Source: an uncultured Eubacteriales bacterium
Lineage (GTDB): Bacteria > Bacillota > Clostridia > Christensenellales > CAG-138
DNA length: 52,152 bases
Assembly: GCA_900319345.1 (NCBI GenBank)
Contig: ONNZ01000009.1
Span: 1-52,152 of the forward strand
Reading direction: 5' to 3'
The position numbers and the translations under genes are program-made. Shown here in pieces: positions 46,005-52,152 of the stretch. Each line of letters begins with the position of its first letter. The stretch's first letter is position 1. The notes under the pieces were generated by a model, which saw only the letters and a list, made by a program, of their open reading frames with translations, was not told the origin of the DNA and made no database searches.

Positions 46005-46370
46005 GCTGGTGATGGGAGTCTACGCGCAAGCTGCGGGCTGCTTGCCCTATGGGCGGCGCAGTCTCTGGCTTGCGCTCCCCGGGGGCGGGAAAAAGCCCCA
46101 CCGGGGCTTTTTCTCTCCGCCCTCCGACTCCCTACCACTAAATGCCATAAAAATAGCCACCCACAAGGGGTGGCTGTTTTTATGGAGCTGGTGATGGGAG
46201 TCTACGCGTTGGCTGCGGGGAGCTGGCCTAATCGGCTGGCGCTCCCTCTTGCCAACGCTCCCCGGGGGCGGGAAAAAGCCCCACTGGGGCTTTTTCTGAT
46301 CCGCCCTCCGACTACCTTCCACTAAAAGCCATAAAAACAGCCACCCACAAGGGGTGGCTGTTTTTATGGA
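46005..46370 (-). repeat. Two tandem ~183-bp repeats carrying tRNA-Thr 3' ends and hairpins
   Basis: The 16 bases GCTGGTGATGGGAGTC (complement of the tRNA-Thr 3' end) occur at 46005-46020, 46187-46202 and in the real tRNA at 46371-46386, spaced 182 and 184. Each unit holds an AAGCCCC/GGGGCTT hairpin (46093-46109; 46276-46292) and a long stem AGCCACCC/GGGTGGCT (near 46155-46178; 46339-46360). The proximal hairpin's outer stem extends into the tRNA CCA end. The middles of the two units differ. No gene is visible in 45937-46366. Confidence 0.85.
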
Positions 46371-46443
46371 GCTGGTGATGGGAGTCGGACCCATGAACCT
46401 CGTCATTACCAATGACGCGCTCTACCAACTGAGCTACACCAGC
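46367..46443 (-). tRNA. tRNA-Thr (GGT)
   Basis: The cloverleaf has acceptor GCTGGTG/CACCAGC, D-arm GCTC/GAGC, anticodon stem CGTCA/TGACG with loop TTGGTAA (anticodon GGT) and T-arm ATGGG/CCCAT. The CCA end is encoded (46367-46369 complement). A consensus promoter precedes it. Confidence 0.95.
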
Positions 46444-51525: not shown

Positions 51526-51601
51526 GGGAGCATAGCTCAGCTGGGAGAGCACTTGCCTTACAAGCAAGGGGTCACAGGTTCGAGCCCTGTTGTTCCCACC
51601 A
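51526..51601 (+). tRNA. tRNA-Val (TAC)
   Basis: Acceptor GGGAGCA/TGTTCCC, D-arm GCTC/GAGC, anticodon loop CTTACAA (TAC), T-arm ACAGG/CCTGT, encoded CCA. First gene of a five-tRNA operon. Confidence 0.97.
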
Positions 51602-51608
51602 GATATTC

Positions 51609-51685
51609 GGCCCGGTAGTACAGTTGGTTAGTACGCCAGCCTGTCACGCTGGAGGTCAGGGGTTCGAGCCCCCTCCGGGTCGCCA
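51609..51685 (+). tRNA. tRNA-Asp (GTC)
   Basis: Acceptor GGCCCGG/CCGGGTC, D-arm GTAC/GTAC, anticodon loop CTGTCAC (GTC), T-arm AGGGG/CCCCT, encoded CCA. Confidence 0.97.
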
Positions 51686-51689
51686 ATGT

Positions 51690-51751
51690 GCCTCGGTAGC
51701 AAGGGACTGAAAATCCCTGTGTCGGTGGTTCAAGTCCACTCTGAGGCACCA
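51690..51751 (+). tRNA. tRNA-Phe (GAA) lacking the D-arm
   Basis: This 62-base gene has acceptor GCCTCGG (51690-51696)/CTGAGGC (51741-51747), anticodon stem AGGGA/TCCCT with loop CTGAAAA (anticodon GAA at 51709-51711), T-arm GGTGG/CCACT with loop TTCAAGT, and encoded CCA. Only TAGCA (51697-51701) joins acceptor and anticodon stems, where about 19 bases with the D-arm are normal. A 14-base loss between AGC repeats of a standard TAGCTC...GAGCA arm would give exactly this. It may be a pseudogene, a real shortened tRNA or an assembly error. Confidence 0.85.
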
Positions 51752-51759
51752 TTTTTTAT

Positions 51760-51835
51760 GCGGGAATAGCTCATTTGGTAGAGCGCAGCCTTGCCAAGGC
51801 TGAGGTGGCGGGTTCGAGCCCCGTTTCCCGCTCCA
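51760..51835 (+). tRNA. tRNA-Gly (GCC)
   Basis: Acceptor GCGGGAA/TTCCCGC, D-arm GCTC/GAGC, anticodon loop TTGCCAA (GCC), T-arm GCGGG/CCCGT, encoded CCA. Confidence 0.97.
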
Positions 51836-51838
51836 TAC

Positions 51839-51912
51839 GGCGCCATAGCCAAGCGGTAAGGCACGGGTCTGCAAAACCCTCATCCCCGGTTCGATTCCGG
51901 GTGGCGCCTCCA
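51839..51912 (+). tRNA. tRNA-Cys (GCA)
   Basis: Acceptor GGCGCCA/TGGCGCC, D-arm GCC/GGC, anticodon loop CTGCAAA (GCA), T-arm with loop TTCGATT, encoded CCA (51910-51912). Last gene of the operon. Confidence 0.97.
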
Positions 51913-52152
51913 AAAACAAAACCACCCCGAAGCGGGTGGTTCTGTTTTTGGAGATGGTACTCCCACATCGACCGGGCGAAGCCCGGTTCGTTCCGGGCAG
52001 CGAAGCTGCGCTTCGGTAGTGAATGAAGCCCCAGTGGGGCTTCAGAGCCGAAGCGTGACCGAGCGTGAGCGAGAAGCGCCTCCAAAGAAAGCATCCAACG
52101 TTACCCCGGATGGGGTGCATTTGTTTTTGGAGATGATACGCCCACATCGACA
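51904..52152 (+). repeat. Repeat unit with tRNA-Cys 3' end and hairpins, continuing past the window
   Basis: GCGCCTCCAAA from the tRNA-Cys 3' end recurs at 52076-52086 (172 bases on). The segment GTTTTTGGAGATG.TAC.CCCACATCGAC recurs at 51944 and 52123 (179 bases on). Between them lie several hairpins, including AAGCCCCAGTGGGGCTT (52026-52042), identical in form to that in the tRNA-Thr repeats. No gene is visible. Confidence 0.8.
51909..51952 (+). terminator. Terminator of the tRNA operon, overlapping the tRNA-Cys CCA end
   Basis: ACCACCC/GGGTGGT form the inner stem and TCCAAAAACA/TGTTTTTGGA the outer stem (51909-51952). The outer stem uses the CCA end of tRNA-Cys. Confidence 0.85.

Follow-up and report, generated by a model that had tools for sequence, protein, structure and literature searches.

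Background

According to PMC11551756, all known bacterial tRNAs are cloverleaves. The closest described systems without a D-arm are metazoan mitochondrial tRNAs, tRNA-Ser for example, and the engineered E. coli mini HisT. The tRNA-Phe gene described here resembles both in having three arms and a linker of 4-5 nt (PMC11551756). In that source, the designed D-armless tRNA-His is reported to be charged and used in E. coli. No natural D-armless tRNA of a bacterium was found in the literature, as far as titles and the beginnings of abstracts tell.

The gene lies near the end of the window, that is, the whole stretch of DNA that was analysed (52,152 nt, one contig of an uncultured Eubacteriales bacterium). 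If it produced a functional tRNA-Phe, nature would offer an exception to the all-cloverleaf rule for bacterial tRNAs, as that rule is given in PMC11551756. The comparisons below suggest another reading. The missing D-arm is very probably a draft-genome error, in which a single-copy tRNA-Phe gene had 14 bases dropped at the assembly or consensus step.

The tRNA-Phe gene as assembled

The window ends with an array of tRNA-Val, -Asp, -Phe, -Gly and -Cys genes (51526-51912, plus strand). Four of them, tRNA-Val(TAC) at 51526-51601, tRNA-Asp(GTC) at 51609-51685, tRNA-Gly(GCC) at 51760-51835 and tRNA-Cys(GCA) at 51839-51912, are called as normal tRNAs by ARAGORN and are also found with Rfam, in line with the preliminary description. 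Beyond the array, similar stretches near 51950 and 52130, seen by eye within 51945-52152, reach the contig end and may explain why the contig stops there.

The tRNA-Phe(GAA) gene (51690-51751, plus strand) is 62 nt long as assembled, while intact copies in the same genus have 76 nt. Its GAA anticodon, 7-bp acceptor stem (GCCTCGG/CTGAGGC), variable loop, T arm and encoded CCA are ordinary, and a five-base linker, TAGCA (51697-51701, plus strand), stands in place of the D-arm. This anatomy had been described before, and both direct reading and the match to the Rfam tRNA model (RF00005) confirm it. The match covers 51690-51748 and is not a chance one, since it scores 44.1 bits against a gathering score of 29; it leaves 13 consecutive D-arm positions of the model empty. 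Thus, as assembled, the D-arm is gone with the other arms kept. ARAGORN sets the Phe gene at 51672-51751 by taking in the end of tRNA-Asp, which is a forced fold. In its place in the array, its acceptor, anticodon and T arms, its CCA and the bases shared with six same-genus copies, the gene is like a canonical bacterial tRNA-Phe(GAA) of RF00005. It differs in the 14 missing D-arm nucleotides.

The two pairs suggested as an extension of the acceptor helix, U-1:A73 and G-2:C74, can form, but intact relatives have identical flanking bases, so the pairs say nothing about the lost arm. In fold predictions, which leave out modifications and proteins, the three-arm form of the 62-nt tRNA, at -21.7 kcal/mol, lies above the minimum of -23.2 kcal/mol, whereas the predicted minimum of the intact 76-nt tRNA is the cloverleaf (-28.0 kcal/mol). 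These predictions argue mildly against function of the 62-nt form.

The window's own assembly (G000) consists of 68 contigs with 2,142,739 bases, at 90.07% completeness and 0.16% contamination. ARAGORN typed 42 tRNA genes in it, 36 in fetched stretches and 6 in the window. The preliminary description had called for a whole-genome check for another tRNA-Phe, and the only GAA anticodon among the 42 belongs to the gene at 51690-51751. tRNA-Ile(GAT) and tRNA-Ala(TGC) are also not among the 42, so the missing second tRNA-Phe in the assembly is no proof for the cell.

tRNA-Phe in related genomes

A search with the 76-nt tRNA-Phe gene of G001 found copies 100% identical to this query in 6 of 11 same-genus relatives (G001, G005, G007, G008, G010 and G011) and no such gene in G002, G003, G004, G006 and G009. 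Comparison of the same operon in the relatives, which had also been proposed, showed that the G000 gene differs from the intact copies only by the 14-nt loss. All bases that it shares with the six copies are unchanged in the alignment, and no compensating change is seen. The earlier claim of a 14-base loss between AGC repeats also holds: G001, G005 and G011 have 14 more bases, all in the D-arm. The exact place of the loss is ambiguous within an AGC triplet, the junction homology being 3 nt.

A pattern spanning the stretch between the Phe anticodon loop and the T loop was found a single time in 7 of the 12 genus genomes (G000 included) and not at all in the other 5; none of the 12 has it twice. 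Because of this distribution, the genus seems to have one tRNA-Phe gene, in the Val-Asp-Phe-Gly-Cys array. The D-armless lesion itself, searched with the pattern GRTAGCANNGGAYTGAAAATCC, is present in 1 of 103 family genomes, namely the window's own. Neither retention in the lineage nor compensating changes, as would be expected of a natural D-armless tRNA, were found.

The pattern GRTAGCANNGGAYTGAAAATCC is narrow and detects only losses between two AGC triplets. In genome_contigs, a search that may omit records of the window's own genome, it matched once, in a Rhizobiales record (L081, about 608-668). In this record, ARAGORN called no tRNA, Rfam had no match reaching the gathering score within 400-900, and upstream there is no 5' acceptor strand that matches. 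L081 was thus rejected as a second D-armless tRNA-Phe. We take the match for a putative 3' fragment of a tRNA-Phe gene, perhaps an integration remnant. In viral_contigs the pattern had zero matches.

The 14 lost nucleotides fall within a 19-nt run common to the relatives' tRNA-Phe and another tRNA of G000. An 18-mer from the relatives' D-arm occurs once in G000, in tRNA-Thr(GGT) (46367-46443, minus strand), which is the only other exact copy in the assembly; the 18-mer is present in 39 of 41 genomes searched, G000 included. Collapse on this shared D-arm was rejected as the sole cause, the junction homology being only 3 nt.

One alternative is that the deletion is real. The assembled copy would then be a pseudogene that no longer works, or else a variant of a minority strain, while the unassembled part of the genome would contain a normal tRNA-Phe gene. 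The 14 nt are bounded by 3-nt direct repeats, the AGC triplets on either side of the D-arm hairpin, and slippage between them may perhaps provide the mechanism. About 10% of the genome is missing, the assembly lacks tRNA-Ile(GAT) and tRNA-Ala(TGC), and the tRNA-Phe of sister genome G009 is also damaged, by a different deletion. Against this, the Phe pattern is found once in each of the seven genomes that have it and never twice, and a real deletion here would leave the broken proS, pheS and other genes of G000, considered below, unexplained. We consider this alternative improbable.

Short deletions elsewhere in the assembly

Altogether 788,413 bases of G000 were compared with 770,639 of G005 and 373,052 of G001, on contigs chosen partly for tRNAs and pheS rather than at random. 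One G000-G005 alignment has 316,626 columns at 81.9% identity, and in it gaps were counted where their flanks are conserved. Small gaps are similar in number in G000 and G005: 75 versus 58 of 1-2 nt, 28 versus 32 of 3-6 nt, and 6 versus 5 of 7-12 nt. In the 13-200-nt class there are 11 in G000 versus 3 in G005, of which 9 versus 1 are not multiples of three. A gap of 164 nt is an insertion in G005, because the sequence is also absent from G001. After its removal, 10 gaps of G000 remain against 3, and 8 of the 10 are not multiples of three. The gap excess in G000 is limited to the size range into which the tRNA lesion falls. Between G001 and G005 (343,825 columns, 93.2% identity), the 11 gaps of at least 7 nt that were listed are mostly multiples of three.

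At eight of the 10 junctions, the sequence of G000 right beside the gap equals that of G005 over 34 nt or more, while about 14% of the aligned columns (43,410 of 316,626) lie in runs of at least 31, a contrast inflated by the requirement for conserved flanks. Homology at the junctions is 0-3 nt, so simple repeat collapse fails to explain these deletions. A gene-level count of broken frames (15 of 137 and 16 of 132 in G000 versus 2 of 148 for G001 and 3 of 145 for G005) was set aside as evidence, because wrong-strand frames enter it and because G001 and G005 are closer to one another than either is to G000. We rely on the symmetric gap count in its stead.

As far as one assembly can show, G000 carries a class of deletions of 14-150 nt, mostly adjoining stretches identical to a related species, and these deletions break genes, including its only genes for ProRS and PheRS alpha. 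First, proS is frameshifted twice, by a 58-nt and a 37-nt deletion (C51:2398-3961; L277, L278). It is present in G000 only in three pieces, none of them at the family cut-off, while G001, G005 and G009 have full frames of 583-585 aa scoring 520-529 bits. The sister genome G009 has neither deletion. A cell without ProRS cannot live. Second, a 58-nt deletion splits feoB into two frames; the gene is full-length in G005, G009 and G011. feoB is not essential, and G000 has further, distant FeoB relatives. Frames are also split in genes for a rubrerythrin-like protein (28 nt), a SpoU-type RNA methylase (56 nt) and a CotH-domain protein (20 nt), the names of the broken genes being taken from the G005 proteins. 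A 59-nt deletion falls in a 104-aa frame with no Pfam or NCBIfam match at 1e-5, and a 39-nt deletion adjoins a tRNA-Gly gene. Loss in G000 rather than gain in G005 was checked in further genomes for the tRNA, pheS-pheT, proS, CotH and feoB lesions. The unassembled tenth of the genome could contain the broken genes in intact form.

The pheS-pheT lesion

The only match to pheS over the cut-off in G000 scores 253 bits, versus 298-303 bits in G001, G005, G009 and G011. In the alignment of this locus (L172, C24:76693-77481) with those of the four genomes (L168-L171), a 150-nt deletion takes out the C-terminal end of PheS together with the stop codon and the first part of pheT, which leaves an in-frame PheS-PheT fusion. 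The deletion is in none of the four, including G009, which is the closest of them at this locus (94.8% identical). The lost part of PheS is, we presume, the one that contains motif 3 of class II synthetases, and an enzyme without motif 3 should be dead. In G005, the pheS locus (L171) has a 164-nt insertion upstream of pheS, which G000 and G001 lack.

Both pheS-pheT and tRNA-Phe act in Phe charging, and the two lesions together could be read as one real event, which counts against an error. A loss confined to Phe charging, in which tRNA and PheRS decay while a second Phe system takes over, had been favoured by a first survey that covered mainly variable regions and showed few other lesions. It was rejected in view of the like lesions that a wider sample revealed in proS, feoB and other genes. 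The few lesions seen in that survey also count against an error, as does the removal of exactly one arm with the other three intact.

Error or function

The preliminary description had put the matter as an either/or: a sole tRNA-Phe would have to be functional, unless the assembly is in error. The framing was right, and the evidence, with the only ProRS gene broken and the only PheRS alpha gene cut, leads to the assembly branch. Since G000 has like short deletions in genes that the cell cannot lack, the tRNA-Phe lesion is most likely an assembly error too. The same class of lesion is present elsewhere in indispensable genes (proS, pheS-pheT), together with the excess of 13-200-nt gaps. The tRNA-Phe lesion would belong to the 14-150-nt deletion class of G000. 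It would have arisen at a place where several related species yield the same reads, and the living cell would have a normal 76-nt tRNA-Phe. The genomes compared are presumably metagenome-derived, and local deletion errors in draft assemblies of this type resemble what is seen here in two respects: short deletions in conserved genes, and tRNA-array lesions and contig ends that vary by genome. Nothing observed in G000 differs from what such an error would produce.

The opposite reading, a functional tRNA-Phe that would be the first natural D-armless one in a bacterium, is very unlikely. In its favour, the gene is the sole tRNA-Phe of the assembly, and Phe codons are used in ordinary number (410 among the 15,562 codons that make up 34 long open frames in the window). 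In PMC11551756, E. coli HisS, EF-Tu and the ribosome accept the engineered D-armless tRNA-His, and the five-base linker has the length quoted there for human mitochondrial tRNA-Ser. However, the same source also states that an RNase mutation was required for the engineered tRNA-His and that strains dependent on it failed to grow at 37 C. The mitochondrial tRNAs and mini HisT are proven to work, whereas the tRNA-Phe of G000, to judge from its sequence, gives no hint of being conserved, compensated or functional, and essential genes are broken in the assembly that contains it. The three-arm form is not its predicted minimum, no compensating change accompanies the loss, and the lesion is confined to one genome among the 103 of the family. 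Moreover, a tRNA that works without its D-arm would lead one to expect an intact, perhaps adapted PheRS; in G000, PheS has lost its C-terminal end and ProRS is broken. With deletions in the only proS and the only pheS of the same assembly, the notion of a working D-armless bacterial tRNA is unsupported. Even less credible is a variant in which the lineage would decode Phe with the D-armless tRNA and a remodelled, single-chain PheS-PheT fusion, as the first natural bacterial case. It requires that these two lesions are real and that the other broken genes are assembly errors.

The case cautions that a rating of 90% completeness and 0.16% contamination does not keep a genome from carrying scattered deletions of 14-150 nt in its most conserved genes. 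Such assembly deletions can mimic remarkable biology.

tRNA arrays in the family

The array has a match at E 1e-45 or better in 83 of the 103 family genomes, and many of the fetched matches end at or close to a contig end. Three same-genus relatives have lesions of their own in it: 57 nt inside tRNA-Phe are gone in G009 (L026), with only the acceptor strands left; tRNA-Asp lacks 34 nt in G010 (L028); and the end of tRNA-Cys is gone in G007 (L025). These lesions differ from each other and are plainly dead. Such tRNA arrays are, to judge from these loci, sites of breaks and errors in these assemblies.

Among the fetched loci, 139 inter-tRNA spacers were scanned, and tRNA-like remnants turned up in 10 rows, a few of which list one place twice. 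The rows include the lesions of G009 and G010. Short tRNA-like matches in spacers of G028 and G100 may be due to chance. In G025 (L039, 1575-1653), a tRNA-Gly-like stretch without an ARAGORN call, decayed or odd, lies between tRNA-Phe and tRNA-Cys. In G068 (L150, about 322-404), a tRNA-Glu gene has two N in a doubled stretch, which looks like a scaffold join inside the gene. Finally, the tRNA-Asp of G108 (L151, about 733-838) has a 5' acceptor strand unlike that of its relatives, with the remainder matching, perhaps because of a chimeric join or a real recombination.
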